From: Aequorivita sp.
GTDB taxonomy: Bacteria > Bacteroidota > Bacteroidia > Flavobacteriales > Flavobacteriaceae
Assembly: GCA_002715485.1 (NCBI GenBank)
Contig: PAZL01000032.1
Coordinates: forward strand, 32,557-70,536
DNA: 37,980 nt
Direction of reading: 5' to 3'
The translations under genes and the position numbers were made by a program. Within the stretch, counting starts at the first letter, position 1. The number at the start of each line of letters is the position of its first letter. Shown here in pieces: positions 3,761 through 37,980 of this stretch. The notes under the pieces were generated by a model. It worked only from the letters and a program-made list of their open reading frames with translations. It did not search any database and had not been told where the DNA came from.

Positions 3761-6700
3761 TTGAAGGCAAAAAATTACGTTTACAAGGGTGGCTTTTTCA
3801 AGCTTTTAACAATTTTAAGTTTTATATTGTTCAGCAATGTTTCGCTGGCACAGGATCCCGACACAACCGCTGTAGGGAGTGAAATGGGAAGAATGGATTT
3901 ACCAACTCCCGTTAGTATTCAGGATCTTTATACCTACGACCCCATAACCGATAGATACATCTATACCCAAACCTTGGGTAGTTTTAATATTACCTACCCT
4001 ATAATTCTTACCCCTCAAGAGTATCAGCGTCTTATTCAAGAGGAACAGATGAGGGCTTACTTCAAAGAAAAAATTGATGCAGCCGACGGTAGAAAGGAAG
4101 GCTCTGAAGAACAGCAGAAAAACCTATTGCCTACGTTTTATGTAAATTCAAATTTCTTTGAATCCATTTTTGGCGGAAACACAATTGAAGTTATTCCACA
4201 AGGTTCCGTTGAGATGGACCTTGGGCTATTGTATACAAAACAGGATAACCCACAATATTCACCGCGAAACCGAAGCAATTTCTCCTTTGATTTTGACCAA
4301 AGAATCAGTTTAAGCCTTTTGGCCAAGGTAGGAACCAGACTTCAGGTTACGGCCAATTACGATACTGAAAGCACCTTCGATTTCCAAAACCAGATTAAGT
4401 TGGAATACACTCCAACGGAAGACGATATTATTCAAAAAATTGAAGTGGGGAATGTGAGCATGCCTTTAAACAGTTCCTTGATTCAAGGAGCACAAAGTCT
4501 TTTTGGGGTTAAAACGCAGCTTCAATTTGGAAAAACAACCATTACTGGGGTTTTCTCTGAACAAAAATCTGAAACTCGTACCGTTACCGCTGAAGGTGGT
4601 GCAACTATTACGGATTTCGAACTTTTCGCATTGGATTATGACGATAACCGACACTTCTTTTTATCACATTACTTTAGGGATAATTATGATCGTGCTCTGG
4701 AGCAATATCCTTTCATAAACAGCAATGTCCAGATTACTCGTATGGAGGTATGGATTACCAACAGAACAAGTAGAACCGAAAACGTTCGAAATATTGTGGC
4801 ATTGCAGGATATAGGCGAATCAGACCCATTGAATATTGGATTGAACACGCCGCCGGGAGGCTTTATTAGAGCGGGCAGAAATGCTTATCCAGATAACACA
4901 AATAACCTCTTTAATCCATTCGGTATCAATGGAGGAGAGCCAACCCTTCTCAATCCGTTAATTCGTGATGTTGCCACAGTGCGTCAAGGGTTTACGGGGG
5001 TTCAAGTAAGTGAAGGTGTAGATTATGTTACGCTTGAAAATGCAAGAAGATTGGATCCGGGGGAATATTCCTTAAACTCGCAATTAGGTTATATCTCTTT
5101 GAACCAGCGTTTAACAAATGATGAGGTTTTAGCAGTTTCATATCAATTTACCGTTAACGGAAAGGTTTATCAAGTAGGTGAATTTTCAAACGATGGTGTT
5201 GAGGCAAATGGAGGTACTCTTCCAGGAACGGGAGGTACAAACCCACCTATTGAGGAAACTGGTCTTGCCCAAAACCTTGTAGTGAAACTTTTGAAGAGTA
5301 GCATTACGAATGTAAATGAGCCAATCTGGGATTTGATGATGAAAAATATCTATCCTATTGGGGCATATCAGCTTGAAAAAGAAGACTTCAAGCTTAATAT
5401 TCTTTATACTGACCCTTCTCCGTTAAATTATTTAACCGAAGCAGGTGCTGAACTTCCCCCAGATGTAAAAGATGAAATTCTCTTAAAGGTTTTCAATCTT
5501 GATAGGTTGAACTTTAATAATGATCCACAGCAGGGGGGCGATGGTTTCTTTGATTTTCTACCAGGGATAACTGTAGACGCACAAAATGGTCGCATTATTT
5601 TTACGACCGTGGAGCCCTTTGGGAAGCACTTATTTGAAAAACTGGATTTGCCAAGTACATCGGCTACTTATTCAATGCCTGAAACCTATAACCCAAATCA
5701 GGCCAAATATGTTTTTAGAACACTTTATACAGGAACCAAAACACAGGCGGAACAACTTGAGAGTGAAAAGAATAAATTTCAGTTAAAAGGAAGTTATAAA
5801 TCTACGGGTGCTGATGGAATTCCCATTGGTGCGTTCAATATTCCGCAAGGCTCCGTTACCGTTACGGCCGGTGGAAGAACTTTGGTAGAAGGGGTGGATT
5901 ATACCGTAAACTATCAATTGGGAAGAGTTCAGATTTTAGACCCTTCATTATTGAATAGTAATATTCCAATTTCTGTGAGTACAGAGAATAATTCGCTTTT
6001 TGGGCAGCAAAGCAAGCGTTTTACAGGCTTAAATGTGGAGCATAAATTTAGCGATAAATTTTTAATAGGTGCAACCTACTTAAATCTTAATGAGCGCCCG
6101 CTAACCCAGAAGTCATCATATGGAGTAGAGCCAATTAACAATACTATTTATGGTATCAATTTAAACTACTCAACCGAGGTGCCGTTCTTAACTAGATTGG
6201 TAAATAAACTTCCAAACATTGATACCGATGTAGAATCAAATGTTTCTTTGCGTGGAGAGTTTGCATACTTAAGGCCGGGGGCGCCAAAAGTTTCAGACTT
6301 TGATGGTAAAACAACTGTATATGTTGATGATTTCGAAGCATCACAAACAGGAAACGATATAAGCGCACCCTCCAGTTGGTTTTTGTCAAGTACGCCAATT
6401 GGTTATGGTGGTGAGTTAGGAAATGATAATTTAGGATATAATTACAACCGTGCAAAACTTGCTTGGTACACCATCGACCCTATTTTCTATAGTAGCCAGC
6501 GCCCAGAAGGGATAAATGATGAAGACCTTTCTTCACCATTTACACGTCGTGTTTTTAGGGATGAAATTTTCCCTAACCAAGATATTATCCAGGGACAAAC
6601 CCAAGCTTTATTCACATTAGATCTAGCATATTACCCATCTACAAGAGGGGAGTATAACTACAACCCCGAAGCTGCAGGAACAAATGATTTGCCAAACCCC

Positions 6701-9700
6701 GAAGATAGATTCGGTGGTATTATGAGACAGCTTACAACTACCGATTTTGAACAATCAAATGTTGAATATATCCAGTTCTGGGTCATGGACCCATTCATTT
6801 ATGATGAAAATAGTGGCAACCCAGGAGGAAATATCAACTTTAACTTGGGAAGCATTTCAGAAGATGTATTAAAAGATGGAAGAAAACAGTACGAAAACGG
6901 ATTGCCTGAAGATGGCGGTAATGCTAATACAACTGCTACAGCCTGGGGTAAAGTACCTACCAACCAATCATTAGTTTATACTTTTGATACCGAAGGACAA
7001 CAACGTACAAACCAGGATATTGGATTAGATGGTTTGGACAATGCTGGAGAAGCAGCCGAGTATGGGGCTTTTGGAGGCTTGCCAGACCCCGCAAATGATG
7101 ACTACCAATACTTTCTTCAAGCTGAAGGAAATATTCTGGACCGTTACCTAAAATACAACGGAACCCAAGGAAACTCTCCGGTTGAAGTTACAAACAACAA
7201 CCGTGGAAATACGGCCCAACCCGATGTTGAGGATATAAATCGTGACAACACCATGAACACGATTGATAGCTATTTTGAATATAACGTACCAGTTTATCCG
7301 GGAATGAGCCGTGAAAATAATGAGTTTATCACAGATGTGAAAGAACTGGAGGTAACTACACAAAATAATGATGTAATCCCAGTGCGCTGGGTACAGTTCA
7401 AAGTTCCAATAAGCGAACCAGATCAGGCAATTAATGGCATTTCAGATTATAGATCTATTCGTTTTATGAGAATGTTCCTTTCACAATTCTCACAAAATAC
7501 CGTTTTGCGTTTTGGTACTATGGAATTGGTCCGAGGCGATTATAGAAAATTCCAAAAAACCCTGGATGATGTAACTCTTGAAGACCCTTCAAATGACAAT
7601 ACCCTGTTTGAAGTTGAAGCTGTAAGTATTGAAGAAAACGAAAACCGAGAGCCAATTCCTTATAGACTTCCCCCAGGGCTTGTTCGTGAGGAATTGAATA
7701 ACAATAATAATATTATACGTGAAAATGAGCAATCATTGGCCCTACGTGTATGCGGCTTGGAGCCAAATGATGGGCGTGCAGTCTATAAAAACTTTAATGT
7801 AGATATGCGCCAGTACAAAAATCTCGAAATGTTTATTCACGCAGAATCATTACAAAATGAAACGGCACTTAGTGATGGACAATTGGTAGCATTCATGCGT
7901 TTGGGGAATGACCTTACAAACAACTATTATGAAGTTCAAATTCCATTGAATCCCACCAATTTTGGGGCAACAAATGCTGAGGAAATTTGGCCCGTTGCAA
8001 ACAGGCTAAATCTTCCTTTAGAACTATTGCAGCAAGTAAAAACCAGAACGCCATTAAATTCAACTGAAGTTGTTTATTATACACAATCAGAACTTGAAGG
8101 TGGTATATCCGGTGGTGAGAATGAGTTAATAATTGGGATTAAAGGAAATCCAAGTTTTGGAAATGTTAGAACCATTATGCTTGGTGTAAAAAACAGTACT
8201 TCCAATGATTTATGTGGGGAGGTTTGGTTTAACGAGCTTAGAATGTCTGAGCTTAAAAATGAGGGAGGCTGGGCCGCCGTTGTGAGTATGGATGCTAACC
8301 TTGCAGATTTTGCGACTGTTAGCGCCACAGGAAAAAGAAGTACAGTTGGCTTCGGCTCTATTGAGCAAGGACCAAACCAACGAAGTCGTGAAGACCTTCA
8401 ACAGTATGACGTTGTTACAAATGTAAACCTTGGCCAATTGCTTCCAAAAAAATGGGGAATTCAATTGCCGTTTAACTATGGACGCTCCGAAGAACTGATA
8501 ACGCCACAATACGATCCTGAATTTCAGGATATTGAACTTGATACCAGGCTCGACAACACAGAGGATGAAGCCGAGAAAGACAGAATTAAGGAACAGGCCG
8601 TAGATTATACAAAGCGCCAGAGTGTTAACTTTATTGGCGTGCGTAAAGAGAGAACCGGAGACGGAAAACCTCAGGTATATGATGTTGAGAATTTCACAGG
8701 ATCATTCTCTTACAATCAAACGGACCATCACGATTTTGAAGTGGAAGATGCTGTTGAACAAAATGTTCGGGTTGGTGCTACCTATAATTACAACTTCGCG
8801 GCGAAACCAGTAGAGCCCTTTAAAAAGAATGATTCATTGTTTACAGGACAGTACTGGAGGTTTTTGAAAGATTTCAACTTTAATTATTTGCCCACAAACA
8901 TTTCAGTAAGTTCAAATATAACTAGGCAGTACAACGAACAAAAGTTTAGAGAAATAAATCTATTGCCGGGCAATATAGGTTTGCCTACTCTTTATCAGCG
9001 TAACTATCTTTTTGATTGGCAATACACCATCAACCATAATTTAACGAAGTCATTGCGTTTCAATTTCACGTCTTCAAATAATATGATAGTTAACAATTAT
9101 TTGGATGATAATGGATTGATAAATAATGACATCGGAATTTGGGATGGTTTCTTTGATGTGGGTAACCCAAATCAGCATTTTCAGTCGTTGCAACTAAATT
9201 ACGACTTGCCTTTCAGTAAGTTTCCTTTCCTAAAATTCCTTCGGGCTACGTATTCCTATACCGGAGACTACCAATGGCAGCGTGGAAGTAATCAATTTAA
9301 TGAAATTGAAATTGAGTTGAGTGACGGAAGCAGAAATGTTTACAATCTAGGTAATTCGATACAAAATGCAAGTACGCATCAAATTAATTCTAGTTTGGAT
9401 ATGAATGGTTTTTACCGCTACATTGGCCTTACTAAAATTAAGAAAAGCAAAACTCGAAAATCTGCCGGCGACGGTAGTCGTGGGGAAGGAGATAAAAATT
9501 CAGCTAGTGGTGGAGAAGGCAAGGCTAGTAGAGAAAGCAAACTTGAGGAAGAAAAGAACAGTGCGCTTTCAAATGAGAAGTCAAATACGCCAAACGTACT
9601 TGGAAGAGGCGCTTCGGGTCAAGAAGGAGGCTTAAATGCAGGCGATAAGGCTATAAATACAGTAATTGGTCTTGCCACAATGCTTAAGAAGGTACAATTT

Positions 9701-10993
9701 AACTATCAAGAAAATAATGGTATCTACCTTCCAGGATATTTGCCTTCTATTGGGTTTATAGGAACTTTGAAGCCAACAACAGGCTTTGTTTTTGGAAGTC
9801 AAGCTGATGTAAGGGAACTTGCCGCTAGAAAAGGATGGTTAACACTCTACCCCGAATTTAATGAGCAATATACCGAGGTAGAAAGCCGTCAAATGGACAT
9901 TCAGGCCAATTTGGAACCTATAAATGATTTGACTGTAGATATTAACGGAAGCAGAATTTATTCAGAAAACTATTCAGAAAATTATATAGTAGAGAACGAC
10001 CTTTATAATTCGTTAACACCGAATACCTTTGGAAACTTTAATATTTCAACTGTTTTAATAAAAACTGCTTTCAGCGCTAGCGATGAAAATAGTTCTGCTG
10101 CTTTTGACGATTTCAGGACCAATAGATTAACTATTGCAAACAGATTGGCGGAGGATTATTACCAAGGTGGAGCCATCCCGAGAGATTCGCTGGGTTACCC
10201 TGTAGGTTTCGGAAGAAACAGTCAAGATGTGCTGTTGCCGGCATTCCTTGCCGCCTATAAAGGCAGTAATGCTTCAAAGGAAAAGACAGGAATATTTAGA
10301 GATATTCCGCTTCCAAACTGGGATATAAAATATACCGGGTTAATGAATATTCCTTGGTTCAAGAAAAACTTCAAACGTTTTTCATTGACCCACGGATACC
10401 GTGCAGGGTACACCGTAAACCAATTTCAGTCTAATTTGGACTATGACCCGAACAATCCCGAGGCTGTTGACCAGGCAGGTAACTTTAAAGTGAAAACATT
10501 GCTCACAAACGTTAACCTGACGGAACAGTTTTCACCTTTACTGCGAGTGGATTTTGAAATGAACAATTCAGTGAAAATACTTGCTGAGATGCGTAAAGAC
10601 CGTGCGCTTTCATTAAGTTTTGCAAATAACCTCTTGACAGAGATAAAGGGTAATGAATATATCATAGGGCTTGGCTATAGAATTAAAGACCTTCGTATTG
10701 CTACCAATTTTGGAGGGAAAAAATCTGTTATTACAAGTGATTTGAACTTTAAAGTAGATCTTTCCAGAAGAGATAACATCACAATTATTAGGTATTTGGA
10801 TATTCAAAACAACCAGACTACCGCCGGGCAAACAATATATGGGGCACAATTGTCTATTGACTATGCATTAAGCAAAAATTTGACCGCCCTTTTCTATTAT
10901 GACCATACATTCTCTGAATATGCTATTTCAACCGCATTCCCACAAACAACTATTAGAAGTGGTTTTACGTTGAGATACAATTTTGGAAACTAA
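3761..10993 (+). CDS. sprA: SprA, giant outer-membrane translocon of the type IX secretion system / cell-surface gliding protein (TTG start)
   Basis: 2410 aa with signal peptide. Characteristic segments: FYVNSNFFESIFGGNTIEVIPQGSVEMDLGLLYTKQDNP, YVDDFEASQTGNDISAPSSWFLSSTP, NYQENNGIYLPGYLPSIGFIGT. Position after ruvA and before gcvH fits Bacteroidota synteny. Confidence 0.96.
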   Translation: MKAKNYVYKGGFFKLLTILSFILFSNVSLAQDPDTTAVGSEMGRMDLPTPVSIQDLYTYDPITDRYIYTQTLGSFNITYPIILTPQEYQRLIQEEQMRAYFKEKIDAADGRKEGSEEQQKNLLPTFYVNSNFFESIFGGNTIEVIPQGSVEMDLGLLYTKQDNPQYSPRNRSNFSFDFDQRISLSLLAKVGTRLQVTANYDTESTFDFQNQIKLEYTPTEDDIIQKIEVGNVSMPLNSSLIQGAQSLFGVKTQLQFGKTTITGVFSEQKSETRTVTAEGGATITDFELFALDYDDNRHFFLSHYFRDNYDRALEQYPFINSNVQITRMEVWITNRTSRTENVRNIVALQDIGESDPLNIGLNTPPGGFIRAGRNAYPDNTNNLFNPFGINGGEPTLLNPLIRDVATVRQGFTGVQVSEGVDYVTLENARRLDPGEYSLNSQLGYISLNQRLTNDEVLAVSYQFTVNGKVYQVGEFSNDGVEANGGTLPGTGGTNPPIEETGLAQNLVVKLLKSSITNVNEPIWDLMMKNIYPIGAYQLEKEDFKLNILYTDPSPLNYLTEAGAELPPDVKDEILLKVFNLDRLNFNNDPQQGGDGFFDFLPGITVDAQNGRIIFTTVEPFGKHLFEKLDLPSTSATYSMPETYNPNQAKYVFRTLYTGTKTQAEQLESEKNKFQLKGSYKSTGADGIPIGAFNIPQGSVTVTAGGRTLVEGVDYTVNYQLGRVQILDPSLLNSNIPISVSTENNSLFGQQSKRFTGLNVEHKFSDKFLIGATYLNLNERPLTQKSSYGVEPINNTIYGINLNYSTEVPFLTRLVNKLPNIDTDVESNVSLRGEFAYLRPGAPKVSDFDGKTTVYVDDFEASQTGNDISAPSSWFLSSTPIGYGGELGNDNLGYNYNRAKLAWYTIDPIFYSSQRPEGINDEDLSSPFTRRVFRDEIFPNQDIIQGQTQALFTLDLAYYPSTRGEYNYNPEAAGTNDLPNPEDRFGGIMRQLTTTDFEQSNVEYIQFWVMDPFIYDENSGNPGGNINFNLGSISEDVLKDGRKQYENGLPEDGGNANTTATAWGKVPTNQSLVYTFDTEGQQRTNQDIGLDGLDNAGEAAEYGAFGGLPDPANDDYQYFLQAEGNILDRYLKYNGTQGNSPVEVTNNNRGNTAQPDVEDINRDNTMNTIDSYFEYNVPVYPGMSRENNEFITDVKELEVTTQNNDVIPVRWVQFKVPISEPDQAINGISDYRSIRFMRMFLSQFSQNTVLRFGTMELVRGDYRKFQKTLDDVTLEDPSNDNTLFEVEAVSIEENENREPIPYRLPPGLVREELNNNNNIIRENEQSLALRVCGLEPNDGRAVYKNFNVDMRQYKNLEMFIHAESLQNETALSDGQLVAFMRLGNDLTNNYYEVQIPLNPTNFGATNAEEIWPVANRLNLPLELLQQVKTRTPLNSTEVVYYTQSELEGGISGGENELIIGIKGNPSFGNVRTIMLGVKNSTSNDLCGEVWFNELRMSELKNEGGWAAVVSMDANLADFATVSATGKRSTVGFGSIEQGPNQRSREDLQQYDVVTNVNLGQLLPKKWGIQLPFNYGRSEELITPQYDPEFQDIELDTRLDNTEDEAEKDRIKEQAVDYTKRQSVNFIGVRKERTGDGKPQVYDVENFTGSFSYNQTDHHDFEVEDAVEQNVRVGATYNYNFAAKPVEPFKKNDSLFTGQYWRFLKDFNFNYLPTNISVSSNITRQYNEQKFREINLLPGNIGLPTLYQRNYLFDWQYTINHNLTKSLRFNFTSSNNMIVNNYLDDNGLINNDIGIWDGFFDVGNPNQHFQSLQLNYDLPFSKFPFLKFLRATYSYTGDYQWQRGSNQFNEIEIELSDGSRNVYNLGNSIQNASTHQINSSLDMNGFYRYIGLTKIKKSKTRKSAGDGSRGEGDKNSASGGEGKASRESKLEEEKNSALSNEKSNTPNVLGRGASGQEGGLNAGDKAINTVIGLATMLKKVQFNYQENNGIYLPGYLPSIGFIGTLKPTTGFVFGSQADVRELAARKGWLTLYPEFNEQYTEVESRQMDIQANLEPINDLTVDINGSRIYSENYSENYIVENDLYNSLTPNTFGNFNISTVLIKTAFSASDENSSAAFDDFRTNRLTIANRLAEDYYQGGAIPRDSLGYPVGFGRNSQDVLLPAFLAAYKGSNASKEKTGIFRDIPLPNWDIKYTGLMNIPWFKKNFKRFSLTHGYRAGYTVNQFQSNLDYDPNNPEAVDQAGNFKVKTLLTNVNLTEQFSPLLRVDFEMNNSVKILAEMRKDRALSLSFANNLLTEIKGNEYIIGLGYRIKDLRIATNFGGKKSVITSDLNFKVDLSRRDNITIIRYLDIQNNQTTAGQTIYGAQLSIDYALSKNLTALFYYDHTFSEYAISTAFPQTTIRSGFTLRYNFGN

Positions 10994-31920: not shown

Positions 31921-32766
31921 TTATTTCGATAAAGTCTCCAAATTAAAATGGTGTACGTCGCGCTGTGGAAATGGAATCGTAATTCCGGCTGCTTCTAAAC
32001 GCTCTTTTCCTTCTTCCAGAATTAGCCACCTTAGCGCCCAGAAATCTTCATTTTTTGCCCAGTAGCGTAACGTAATATTTACGGAGCTATCACCCAATTC
32101 AGCTACTGCTGCCATTGGCATTTTGTCTTCAAGTTTTAAAACCGTCTCTTGTTCGGAAACTAAGTTTAAAAGAATTTCCTTGGCTTGCTTGATATTATCG
32201 TCATACCCTATCCCAAAGGAAAGATTTTCACGCCTTATGCCTTCTTCGGTGTAATTTATAATATTATCATTACTCAACTTGCCGTTCGGAATTATAGCTA
32301 GTTGGTTTCCAAAAGTTGTCAATTTTGTATTGAATATGGAAATCTCCTTTACCGTTCCATCAACACCTTGGGCGCTAATAAAATCGCCAACCCGAAATGG
32401 CTTTATCAATAATATAAGCACACCTCCTGCAAAATTTGCCAGTGATCCCTGTAGCGCCAAGCCCACAGCAAGTCCTGCGGCACCAATAATAGCTACCAGC
32501 GAAGCAGATTCAACACCCAATTGGGTAATTACTAATACGAAGAGTACTATCTTTAAGCCCCAATTTATTAAGCTGGCAATAAAATTTTCGAGCGTGGGGT
32601 CGTACTCTTTCTTATCAAAAAATCTTCTTATAAAGCCGTTGATTATCTTAATCAACCAAAGCCCTATCAGAAGCATTAAAATTGCTCCAACTACATTTGG
32701 TAAAAAATCAATTAATTTTTGTCCGTACTTTTCAATGTAAATATCCAAGTCTTGAAATTTGTCCAT
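31921..32766 (-). CDS. Small-conductance mechanosensitive ion channel (MscS family)
   Basis: 281 aa; IGAAGLAVGLALQGSLANFAGGVLILLIKPFRVGDFISAQGVDGTVKEISIFNTKLTTFGNQLAIIPNGKLSNDNIINY. Confidence 0.96.
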   Translation of the reverse strand: MDKFQDLDIYIEKYGQKLIDFLPNVVGAILMLLIGLWLIKIINGFIRRFFDKKEYDPTLENFIASLINWGLKIVLFVLVITQLGVESASLVAIIGAAGLAVGLALQGSLANFAGGVLILLIKPFRVGDFISAQGVDGTVKEISIFNTKLTTFGNQLAIIPNGKLSNDNIINYTEEGIRRENLSFGIGYDDNIKQAKEILLNLVSEQETVLKLEDKMPMAAVAELGDSSVNITLRYWAKNEDFWALRWLILEEGKERLEAAGITIPFPQRDVHHFNLETLSK

Positions 32767-32771
32767 AAAAT

Positions 32772-34886
32772 TTATTCGTTTTTATTTAATAATTCAATTG
32801 CAATTTTTATATCCTTTATGGGCAGTTTGCAGGTATTGTTTTTGCAAACATAAATAAGGGTTTCGCCGTCCACAAATCTATTTTTAAACAGCGGCCCGTT
32901 ATTTTCATCCACGCTTCCGGCAATAATAATATTTGGCAGATAATGTTTGTTTATTTGCTTTGCTTTTTCAGAAACATCTTTTCCTACGATAATTACTTCA
33001 AAAAAGTCGTTTTTAAAATTCAGCAGAAGATCCAGCCAATTTGAAAACCCGCTGGGATATTGCATCATTTCTTCAGATACATTCTTTAGCATCTGTTGCG
33101 AAATTTCTTTAAAACCTGTATTTTCAAAATATTTTGAAAGCAGAAAAAGGTTTTTTGCCATTGCCGAATTTGACGACGGAATCACGTTGTCCCGATATTC
33201 AAAATTTCGGCTAACGATGGCGGAATCTTCTTTTGAGGTGAAATAGAACATATGCTTTTCCGAATCAAAGAAATTGGCGATTGTATAATCGGTCATTTTT
33301 TTTGAAAGTTGAAGCCATCTTTCATCCAGCGATATTTGATATAACTCCAGAAAAGCCTCGATGGTAAAGGCATAATCCTCTAAAAACCCATTGATACTGC
33401 TTTGGCCGTCTTTGTAATTGTGAAACAATGCGCCATTATCCCGTAGTTGTTTTTCAGAAATGAAACTTGCATTTTTAAGAGCGCTATTTAAATATTCTTT
33501 TTTTCCAAAGGCTTTATAAGCATCCACATACCCCTTAAGCATTAAGGCATTCCAAGAAGTTAGGGTTTTGTCGTCCAGACGCGGTTTGGCTCTTTGGTTG
33601 CGATAGGTGAGGAGGGTTTTTTTCCAGCTTTTCTTTTTTTGCTGAAATGCTTCGGAAGTAAGATCAAATTCATTTTCAATTTGTGCATCGGTTTTTTGGC
33701 GGATGAGCACATATTGATCTTTTTCCCACTTTCCGTAACTGTTCACATTATAATATTCTTTAAATATTTTGAAGTCATCCTTTAACAATTTCTGCAATTG
33801 TTCCGCAGTAAAAACGTAGAAAGCGCCTTCCTCTAATGTTCCATTTTCATCTTTACTATCCGCATCAAGTGAAGAATAGAAGCCACCCTCCTCATTTGTC
33901 ATTTCAAGTGAAATAAATTCCAAAGTTTCTGCAACAACATCGCTATAAAGAGGGTTTTGGGTCACTAAAAAAGCATCGCTGTAAAGACTGATAAGTTGGG
34001 CATTGTCATAAAGCATTTTTTCAAAATGGGGCACATGCCATTTTTCGTCTGTACTATATCGGGCAAAGCCTCCGCCAATTTGATCATAGAGGCCACCAAA
34101 CGCCATTTTATCTAAGGTTAGAGTTATTTGGGCAAGTAATTTATCGTTTTTATTTGAAACTGCTTGTCTCAATAAAAATGCTAAATTATTTGGCATCATA
34201 AACTTTGGGGAACCTTTAAAGCCCCCGTTTTTATCATCGAATTGATTGGACCAATTCTTTATAATTTCATTAACGGGAAAATTTTTAAAATCGACTGTTT
34301 CGGTTCTCAAACGGATGAGATCCATACTTTTAATGCCCTCTTCCAATCTGTTTGCGTAGGCAATCAATTTTTGGGGCTCATTCTTGTAAATTTCCTGTAT
34401 CTGCTCCAGCGCATTTATCCAGTCTTTTTTTCTGAAATAAGTCCCGCCCCAAACCGGTCTTCCATCAGGAAGTGTCACCACGTTTAAGGGCCAGCCAGCA
34501 CTACCGGTCATAAGTTGCACGGCATTAATATAACTTTGATCTACATCTGGTCTTTCCTCGCGATCTACTTTTACTGGTATAAAATTCTTGTTCATCACTG
34601 AGGCTACGGTACTGTCCTCAAAACTTTCTTGCTCCATAACGTGGCACCAATGGCAGGCCGCATAACCAATACTTACAATCATTAATTTTTTTTCTTTTTT
34701 GGCCTGTTGTAAGGTTGTTTCGTTCCAAGCCTTCCACTGTACCGGGTTATGGGCATGTTGTAGCAAGTAGGGGCTAGACTCTTTACTTAAATCGTTAGTA
34801 AATTTGTGTGTTTCCAAGTTATGTTTTGTTGAAGAGTTGCAACCGAATAGAATTTGCAGGGCGATAAAAACCAATATCAATCGCAT
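32772..34886 (-). CDS. DUF255 / thioredoxin-domain (YyaL-like) lipoprotein; start re-proposed at ATG 34886
   Basis: [69 protein letters not shown]. Lipobox-like [16 protein letters not shown] starts at codon 22 of the track ORF (34949). A hairpin lies inside the upstream extension. Confidence 0.9.
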
Positions 34887-34904
34887 AATATTTTTTAGGA
34901 AAAC

Positions 34905-34938
34905 AAAATACGCCTTTGATAACCCAAAAGCGTATTTT
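34905..34938 (-). terminator. Probable terminator of the dodecin gene (minus strand), possibly bidirectional
   Basis: AAAATACGCCTTTG-ataacc-CAAAAGCGTATTTT: 14-position stem with one mismatch. Minus-strand flank reads GCGTATTTTGTTTTCC. Confidence 0.7.
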
Positions 34939-34955
34939 CCGACAATCATTATGTA

Positions 34956-35254: not shown

Positions 35255-36175
35255 TTATCCATTAATAGCCACCACTTGGTTTACCTGCCCGTTTAGCATT
35301 TCTCTTAGCATGGTTTCAATACCATTTTTTAAGGTAATTGTAGATGAAGGGCAACCACTGCAGGCACCCTGAAGAATAACCTTAAGTGTTTTAGTCTCAA
35401 TGTTGAAAGAATCAAACATAATATGTCCGCCATCACTTGCCACTGCTGGTTTGACATATTCATCCAGTATGGAGATTATTTCCTTTTCAAGATCAGTATA
35501 TGGTTTGTGAGAAGTTTGAGAAGAACTTATTGAGGTAGATTGATTTTCAGTAATATTTGTGGCGTTCAATATTTCATCGTTCAATACTGGTTTTCCTTCT
35601 TCGATAAATTTTCTGATGAACTCCCGCAGTTCGGATGAAATATCTTGCCAATCCGCAGTATCATACTTCATAATCGAAACGTAATTTGCGCTTATAAAAA
35701 CTTCTTTTACAAATGGAAAGCTGAACAGCACTTTGGCCAATGGTGAATGGATGGCATCATCAAGGTTTTTAAACTCAAATGTTCCCGATGCCAATGGTTT
35801 ATTGGCAACAAATTTCAAAACACTGGGATTTGGAGTGCTTTCCGCATAAATGCTTACGGGAGATTTTTTGACAGTGTTTTCTTCAGAAATAACAGATTTT
35901 CCAGTATTTAGGTATTCCAAAATCGAATTGGCTACTTCTTGTTGAACATCTTCCCATGCAACAATATTATATTTTTCAATTGCGACAAAATTTTGGGAGA
36001 TATAGACTGTTTTAACGAAAGGTAGATAAAAAAGCTGTTGTGCTAACGGACTTGGCTTTGCTTCATCGATATTTTTGAATTCGTAGCTAGAATTGCTTGA
36101 TAGGAAAGAGTTTGCAGTAAATTTAACAATATTTGGATTAGAAGTTTGGGAAATTTCAATGTTAAATTGGGACAT
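35255..36175 (-). CDS. NifU family (Nfu-type) Fe-S protein with duplicated N-terminal domain
   Basis: 306 aa; two consecutive Nfu-N-like repeats, then VKPAVASDGGHIMFDSFN...GACSGCPSSTITLKNGIETML (CxxC). Confidence 0.94.
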   Translation of the reverse strand: MSQFNIEISQTSNPNIVKFTANSFLSSNSSYEFKNIDEAKPSPLAQQLFYLPFVKTVYISQNFVAIEKYNIVAWEDVQQEVANSILEYLNTGKSVISEENTVKKSPVSIYAESTPNPSVLKFVANKPLASGTFEFKNLDDAIHSPLAKVLFSFPFVKEVFISANYVSIMKYDTADWQDISSELREFIRKFIEEGKPVLNDEILNATNITENQSTSISSSQTSHKPYTDLEKEIISILDEYVKPAVASDGGHIMFDSFNIETKTLKVILQGACSGCPSSTITLKNGIETMLREMLNGQVNQVVAING

Positions 36176-36251: not shown

Positions 36252-37980
36252 ATGAAAAAATTAATACTTCTTTTAACGTTTGTATTTCCTCTTTTCGTTT
36301 TTTCACAACCAGTTACGTTGTTCCAACAGTTTAACGGTAGGTATGATTTTACGGCAGTTGGTAATACTTTAAATGCACAACCGAACTTTAACGGGTATTG
36401 TGGCCAACTCCTTCAAAGTAGTGCCAGCTTGTCCCTAACGCCAGGTCAAACTTTTGTATCAGCTCATTTGTATTGGGGTTCAATTGGTACTGGAGATTTT
36501 GATGTTTCGTTAAATGGAACACCTATTAGTGCACAACGCATCTTCAGCCATACCTTTAATGGCCAGCCTTATTTTTCGGCATATGCAGACGTTACTTCTT
36601 TAGTTGCAGCTACAGGAAACGGTACTTATACTTTTGCCGACATGGATGTTCAAGGCTTGCTTTCACAATATTGTGGTACAAACTTTGGAGGGTGGGCTAT
36701 CTATATAATTTATGAAGACCCATCATTGTTGTTGAACCAGATAAGCTTGTTTGACGGTTTGGAAAGTGTTTCTGCCAATAATAATAACTTAAGTATAACT
36801 TTAACTAATATTGATGTAAGTTCAGATATTCTTTCAAAAATTGGATTTTTGGCCTGGGAAGGGGAAGCTGAAATTGCAAATGGTGAAAGCCTTTTTATAA
36901 ATGGCACATTAATTTCGAATGCATTAAACCCTGCCGATAATGCATTTAATGGAACAAACTCTTATATAGGTCCGCCCGGAAATACCCAAAATTATAACAT
37001 GGATTTGGATTATTACGATCTGGTCGGGATCGTAAACCCAGGGGACACAACCATCCTCATTGAATTGGAGTCTCAGCAGGATTTCATAATGGTAAATAAT
37101 ATTATTACGAGTGTAAACTCTGAACTTCCAGATGCAACCATTGAGATTGATGATTTGGGAGTACTATGTCAAAATGGTAATATTGATGTTGACTATACGG
37201 TATATAATGTTAACAGTACAAATGAATTACCAGCAAATACTCCAATAGCATTTTATGCTGATGCTGTTTTAATTGGCCAAACTACAACAACAAATGCCAT
37301 TCCCATTGGCGGTTCTGAAAGTGGAACTATTACTTTAAATATACCTATCGCTACTCCAAATAACTTTAACCTTAGAGCCGTTGTGGATGATATTGGAAAT
37401 GGTACGGGCATAGTAGCAGAAACCGACGAATCAAATAACGAATTCATTTATCCCGTTGATCTTAGTACGGCCGGTATTTTACTTGATCCAGGTCCAGCTT
37501 GTTTGGGTAGGCCAGTTATTTTAGATTCTGGAGTTACCGATCCTCCATTTAACATTCAGTGGTTTAGAAATGGTATTCCTATCCCAGGAGCTACTAACGC
37601 TACCCTTACGGTTACAACAGATGGTATATATTCTGTTGAAGCAGTAGATGGCATCTGTCGGGTAGATAGTAATTCGGTTGTCATTACTTTTAGGCCCCAG
37701 CCCATTGCGAACGCTGCTGTGGATCTTTACCAGTGCGACTACGGGACTACGGCGGGCGTGTTCAATCTGACGGACAACGACGCGAACATTCTGGGCGGTC
37801 AGGACCCTGCGCTCTTCACGATAAAGTACTACCAGAGCTACCAGGACAGTTTTGACGACACCAACGAGATCCTGGGTGGTGTTCACATCATCGTCCCCCC
37901 GTCCCCGCAGACGATCTATGCGCGCATCGAGGACAACAGCGGTAGCTGTTTCGACCTTACGGACTTCCGTATCTTTTTCA
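36252..37980 (+). CDS. Large secreted adhesin-like protein (CARDB-like and Ig/PKD-like modules; probable T9SS substrate), 5' portion, continues beyond the window
   Basis: Open frame from ATG 36252 to the window end, not in the ORF track because it has no stop. MKKLILLLTFVFPLFVFSQ signal peptide; DLGVLCQNGNIDVDYTVYNVNSTNELPANTPIAFYADAVLIGQ...VAETDESNNEF is CARDB-like; FNIQWFRNGIPIPGATNATLTVTTDGIYSVEAVDGICRVDSN is Ig-like; LYQCDYGTTAGVFNLTDNDANILGGQDPALFTIKYYQS...QTIYARIEDNSGSCFDLTDFRIFF resembles repeat units of flavobacterial type B-sorted proteins. Confidence 0.9.
   Translation, partial: MKKLILLLTFVFPLFVFSQPVTLFQQFNGRYDFTAVGNTLNAQPNFNGYCGQLLQSSASLSLTPGQTFVSAHLYWGSIGTGDFDVSLNGTPISAQRIFSHTFNGQPYFSAYADVTSLVAATGNGTYTFADMDVQGLLSQYCGTNFGGWAIYIIYEDPSLLLNQISLFDGLESVSANNNNLSITLTNIDVSSDILSKIGFLAWEGEAEIANGESLFINGTLISNALNPADNAFNGTNSYIGPPGNTQNYNMDLDYYDLVGIVNPGDTTILIELESQQDFIMVNNIITSVNSELPDATIEIDDLGVLCQNGNIDVDYTVYNVNSTNELPANTPIAFYADAVLIGQTTTTNAIPIGGSESGTITLNIPIATPNNFNLRAVVDDIGNGTGIVAETDESNNEFIYPVDLSTAGILLDPGPACLGRPVILDSGVTDPPFNIQWFRNGIPIPGATNATLTVTTDGIYSVEAVDGICRVDSNSVVITFRPQPIANAAVDLYQCDYGTTAGVFNLTDNDANILGGQDPALFTIKYYQSYQDSFDDTNEILGGVHIIVPPSPQTIYARIEDNSGSCFDLTDFRIFF

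Follow-up and report, generated by a model that had tools for sequence, protein, structure and literature searches.

A GC-rich 3′ module shared by two type IX secretion surface-protein genes of Aequorivita, likely a product of GC-biased ectopic gene conversion

Paralogous genes that evolve in concert are enriched in GC in mammals, as in the histone and Hsp70 genes, and concerted evolution is known in bacteria from the tuf genes and the rRNA operons. GC enrichment of converted paralogues was also described for the X-chromosome palindromes of mammals (PMC8981503). Concerted evolution of duplicated bacterial genes was reviewed by Santoyo and Romero (2005, as referenced in PMC13061034), and GC-biased gene conversion in bacteria was proposed from genome-wide correlations (Lassalle et al. 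2015, PMC4450053); this proposal is disputed (PMC8153448), likewise by Bobay and Ochman as cited in PMC8223754. Proteins of the type IX secretion system (T9SS) with a type B signal attach to PorP-like partners on the cell surface, an example being SprB with SprF (PMC9143113).

The Aequorivita locus analysed here resembles the mammalian converted paralogues in its near-identical tracts, attributed to ectopic conversion, and in a raised GC content that is limited to the tract, and it differs from them in being bacterial, without meiosis, in a step of ~20–25 GC points and in the existence of sister taxa without a homogenised partner, which serve as built-in controls. With duplicated bacterial genes it shares the homogenisation of paralogues within a genome by gene conversion. 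As in the proposal of Lassalle et al. (PMC4450053), recombining DNA has the higher GC, in coding and non-coding positions alike; that proposal was built on genome-wide statistics across genes, whereas the Aequorivita case is a single intragenomic tract in which GC steps up by 20–25 points at a defined boundary of recombination. The C-terminal type B signal (TIGR04131/CHU_C) and a PorP-like gene adjacent to one locus are those of T9SS type B proteins with PorP/SprF-like partners (PMC9143113); unlike these systems, two genes with different heads carry one homogenised stalk and signal, and the second locus is without an adjacent PorP-like gene. In a literature search of incomplete coverage, no earlier report came up of this locus, of a similar case in bacteria or of a large GC shift limited to the converted tract in bacterial paralogues.

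The DNA analysed (the window) is a stretch of 37,980 nucleotides from a 2.8 Mb Aequorivita assembly in 70 contigs, and its last base is also the last base of contig C32 (70,536 bp). A single open frame runs from nt 36252 to the window end. Its first 480 codons (36252–37691, plus strand; GC 37.6%, GC3 26.9%) encode the AT-rich, unique N-terminal head of a T9SS surface protein at a site termed locus A, where orthologues of the head were found in G001, G003, G005, G007, G010, G011, G012, G013, G014, G015, G017 and G020; the product is secreted, and its head contains a CARDB domain (amino acids 297–398, about nt 37140–37445, plus strand; PF07705, E 1.2e-5). The remaining 288 nt or so (37692–37980, plus strand) are the beginning of a GC-rich 3′ module of about 7.0 kb, the rest of which lies beyond the contig end. 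GC in these 288 nt is 56.6% and GC3 77.1%; other 288-nt windows in the 38 kb reach 47.2% GC at most (mean 37.5, s.d. 3.8). The GC3 step from 27% to 77% has its best change point at nt 37692, with a likelihood ratio of 85.5, where 1000 permutations gave 21.5 at most, so that the GC jump near 37.69 kb within one frame given in a preliminary description is real, and the onset which it had placed at RPQPIANAA is right to within one codon. Upstream lie three minus-strand genes that serve as synteny markers of locus A: a divergent Nfu/NifU-type Fe-S scaffold gene (35255–36175; PF08712, E 2.5e-54; a marker in the congeners examined) and, assigned by domain search, a DUF255/thioredoxin-like gene (32772–34949) and an MscS-type mechanosensitive channel gene (31921–32766). 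The window that carries this T9SS cargo gene also carries a translocon component, a gene for 2410 amino acids at 3761–10993 (plus strand) with a Pfam SprA_N match (E 3e-198).

The terminal 288 nt match a second contig, C22, with 99% identity (3 mismatches), and the shared block opens exactly at the GC step. The gene on C22 encodes 2767 amino acids, with an AT-rich head of ~440 residues that differs from the window head, followed by ~7 kb at about 60% GC. This ~7-kb module encodes a stalk of degenerate modules and a C-terminal type B sorting signal, which was detected on the full-length paralogue P0002 (TIGR04131, E 2.8e-35; CHU_C, PF13585, E 5.7e-12); the window copy stops before the signal, and the tail at locus A is deduced from synteny. 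Contigs C5 (3962 bp, 11 mismatches) and C11 (101 bp) likewise carry the module in truncated form. With two ends of the head type and two of the tail type, the contigs indicate two genes with one common long 3′ module, inside which the assembly breaks, and C32 ends close to the GC step because the module is a long repeat. In congeners, locus A consists of the MscS/DUF255/Nfu neighbourhood, head A, the module and, directly 3′ of it, a PorP/SprF-like gene, and locus B has the head found on C22 between folE/cysS and OmpP1/proS; by this synteny, the window gene at locus A corresponds to C32 plus C11, and locus B to C22 plus C5. No PorP-like gene was seen beside locus B, where OmpP1 is found instead. 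Both traits of a type B system, the C-terminal sorting domain (on P0002) and the adjacent PorP/SprF-like gene (at locus A), are present.

Module pairs within single-contig genomes were 99.6% identical over 6986 bp (G015), 100% over 5420 bp (G016) and 97.8% over 5.4 kb (G002), while the same modules were 74–78% (G016 and G015, aligned stretches) and 69% (G002) identical to those of the window species; aligned module stretches from different species were mostly 65–82% identical, and up to 94% for the closest. Paralogous modules are thus more alike within a genome than between species, and the heads remain orthologous by locus. Judging from the assemblies, the module is homogenised inside each genome and diverged between species throughout the genus. 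Many draft assemblies hold a stand-alone contig consisting of the module alone, as expected of a collapsed repeat. The preliminary description had offered a tandem array homogenised by GC-biased conversion as one explanation; its within-array part does not hold, as near-identical repeat units are absent inside the module gene (internal repeats are only ~70% identical, against 97.8–100% between gene copies), and its GC-biased conversion part is supported, for two paralogous genes at separate loci. Some exchange of the locus between species, outside a simple model, is suggested by gene-tree/species-tree discordance: module identity between G000 and G017 (94.2%) exceeds their topA identity (87.0%). 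G017 and G022 are near-sisters by topA (97.2%); G017 has a GC-rich module that is 94% identical to that of the window species, and G022 has a single GC-poor module allele of another type, a contrast that suggests interspecies replacement of the locus.

Module GC3 was compared with topA GC3 of the same genome. In 14 genomes of the homogenised class (in drafts, the presence of two copies was deduced from contigs that are collapsed repeats and from contig ends that pair up, rather than directly seen) module GC3 was 0.44–0.82, i.e. 0.13 to 0.38 above topA, and in 7 genomes with a single copy or diverged copies (one of which, G026, is a truncated contig assumed to be single-copy) it was 0.21–0.36, i.e. 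0.06 to 0.13 below topA (Mann-Whitney p 1.7e-5 for the excess, 14 vs 7 genomes). In G001, G012, G020 and G022 the module occurs at locus A alone, at a GC of 40–44%, and locus B is empty, with OmpP1, folE and cysS adjacent. In A. xiaoshiensis and A. sinensis both loci are kept, and the copies have diverged to 64–66% identity with a GC of 36–37%. On this sequence evidence, the module appears to be GC-rich in the genus only where two copies are homogenised, single or diverged copies being at background GC. The GC-rich and GC-poor states interleave, with at least five changes on the topA tree and at least four on the module protein tree, which makes a single origin of the GC-rich state, native or foreign, unlikely. 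The GC4 ranges (0.43–0.87 vs 0.17–0.41) stand beside the effects on PorP and on an intergenic terminator described below as indications that the rise is independent of gene function and codon preference.

Outside the genus the size of the effect varies. Excess of GC3 over topA was +0.50 in Luteirhabdus, +0.45 in Thermobacterium and +0.43 in the MAG SAT49; collapsed modules in Ulvibacter, Bizionia and one Flavobacterium showed no excess, and in AB_MB380 and HC6-5 copies that are 97–99% identical had their GC raised by only ~3–4 points. Pair age, conversion rate and repair genes may differ between these lineages. The most extreme composition was seen in stand-alone contigs of Thermobacterium salinum (L079) and Luteirhabdus pelagi (L084), with a module GC of 70–71% and GC3 of 0.92–0.94 at a topA GC3 of ~0.45. 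The Flavobacteriaceae MAGs HC6-5 and AB_MB380 (L104, L134, L085, L090, L099) have at least three homogenised copies, some of them close together, yet show only a small GC rise.

The GC step coincides with the boundary of the identical tract, whose position is not the same in every genome. In G002, the copies are ~78% identical over the first 400 bp of the module, with a GC of 41–46%; DNA of 99.5% identity and 64% GC follows, in a tract that takes in the stop codon, intergenic DNA and terminator. In 250-bp windows of G015, G016 and G002, mean GC was 0.39–0.41 at identities below 85% and 0.55–0.64 at 95% or more. A scan of 1.2 Mb of G016 (mean GC 38.8%, s.d. 3.7% per kb) placed all 1-kb windows above 52% GC at the two module copies, and apart from these copies no duplicate of 300 bp or more reached 95% identity; by the module tracts and this control, GC elevation is confined to recombining DNA, with matching boundaries. 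A tandem repeat cluster in G016 (C1:671813–673033; 86–91% identity) has a GC of 48% against 44% in its flank, and may be a milder instance of this effect.

In the lineage of G016 and G009, a head, the module and a PorP copy were inserted at a third site (site C), which is empty in G000 and G022; since the insertion included PorP, the 100% identical tract of G016 takes in this gene. GC3 of PorP is 0.68 in G016 and 0.61 in G009, compared with 0.24–0.45 in all other genomes examined, and the encoded G016 protein is 91% identical to the orthologue of the window species. Synonymous changes on the G016 branch numbered 30 AT>GC versus 2 GC>AT in PorP and 15:13 in topA (Fisher p 6e-4). By its rise in PorP, the effect can be separated from causes specific to adhesins, repeats or stalk codons. 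G009 had been considered as a GC-rich single-copy counterexample and was rejected: in its assembly a site-A-like head runs into the downstream flank of site C, and the end of another contig lies exactly in the head of site C, so that the copies are collapsed.

Two copies of the module exist, they evolve in concert, and GC follows both the tract edge and the homogenised state. The GC-rich stretch is quite likely the product of GC-biased ectopic gene conversion between the two paralogous genes. Each gene combines an AT-rich head of its own with the common stalk and T9SS type B signal. In the proposed mechanism, recurrent ectopic conversion (RecA-type recombination between the copies, mostly without crossover) would keep the modules near-identical. 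Every round of conversion would prefer G/C to A/T, by which DNA within the homogenised tract (stalk, intergenic terminator and PorP) would rise from ~38% to 55–65% GC and DNA outside would stay at background. Conversion would thus be the cause of the GC rise, presumably via biased mismatch repair rather than recombination-linked mutation. It is also probable that any DNA, irrespective of what it encodes, gains ~20–25 GC points on entering a homogenised paralogous tract, and that it is at background GC in relatives in which the partner is missing or diverged.

An unlikely alternative is that repair synthesis during ectopic exchange adds A/T to G/C mutations, which unbiased conversion then spreads to both copies; the same tract-limited GC rise is predicted. 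Differences between copies, polarised by outgroup, numbered 28 GC>AT and 21 AT>GC, less AT-biased than ordinary bacterial mutation would give, in a small sample with distant outgroups in which repair bias and mutation bias are not separated. A mutation bias from AT to GC would be unusual in view of the near-universal GC>AT mutation bias of bacteria (PMC8153448).

Selection for high GC on the adhesin stalk, through codon use, mRNA or DNA structure or protein composition, would fit a step that falls inside a gene and a stalk that is long and low-complexity-like, and selection on the DNA or mRNA of the array was among the earlier suggestions. It is disfavoured, and we consider it quite improbable: orthologous stalks are at 36–44% GC in congeners with single or diverged copies, the heads of the same transcripts are unaffected, the G002 tract covers intergenic terminator DNA, and PorP, an unrelated beta-barrel gene, has its GC raised in the tract mostly at synonymous sites. 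The abrupt change of composition, and the likelihood of some interspecies exchange of the locus, could also be read as a horizontal gain of a GC-rich cassette from a GC-rich donor with later duplication, the third explanation of the preliminary description. This is very improbable: congeners have AT-rich orthologues, the module tree mixes GC-rich with GC-poor versions, and PorP, a native gene, turned GC-rich in the tract and is so only in G016 and G009. No GC-rich donor was found among the GTDB matches, whose 74 kept loci are titled Flavobacteriaceae or Flavobacteriales except for three doubtfully labelled bins. These three (L077, L081 and L086, titled Legionellaceae, Gammaproteobacteria and Cyclobacteriaceae) have a module of Flavobacteriaceae type and are probably misbinned or mislabelled contigs.

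The same correlation of identity and GC would result if GC-rich sequence recombined more easily and therefore stayed homogenised. In M30B29, the opening 750 bp of the tract combine 97–100% identity with a GC of 37–39%, and no demonstrably single GC-rich module copy was found among the genomes compared, so that homogenisation apparently precedes the GC rise; PorP, moreover, is AT-rich in all outgroups without the site-C duplication of the G016/G009 lineage, and such reversed causality is extremely unlikely. An assembly chimera or a contaminating read join, conceivable at a contig end only 288 nt beyond the switch, can be dismissed, as the junction of head A and module recurs in single-contig G015 and in drafts G003, G005, G010, G011, G013 and G017, and the GC-rich part runs for ~7 kb rather than returning to background within a few hundred bases.

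The two genes probably encode surface adhesins with different tips and a common stalk and signal, which may be recognised by a single PorP/SprF-like anchor encoded at locus A. A shared PorP would favour tails that are alike, but would not alone raise GC. Whether bacterial gene conversion is GC-biased is an open dispute, which bears on the excess of bacterial GC over mutational expectation (PMC4450053 for; PMC8153448 against). The Aequorivita locus offers replicate lineages, controls within the gene, within the genome and in sister species, sharp boundaries and culturable species, so that a direct test is possible. Abrupt GC islands in bacterial genes can arise at home and not by horizontal transfer, and detectors of horizontal transfer that rely on composition may misread them. 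If the proposed mechanism is true, the module pair would amount to a natural experiment on strong GC-biased conversion within a bacterial genome.
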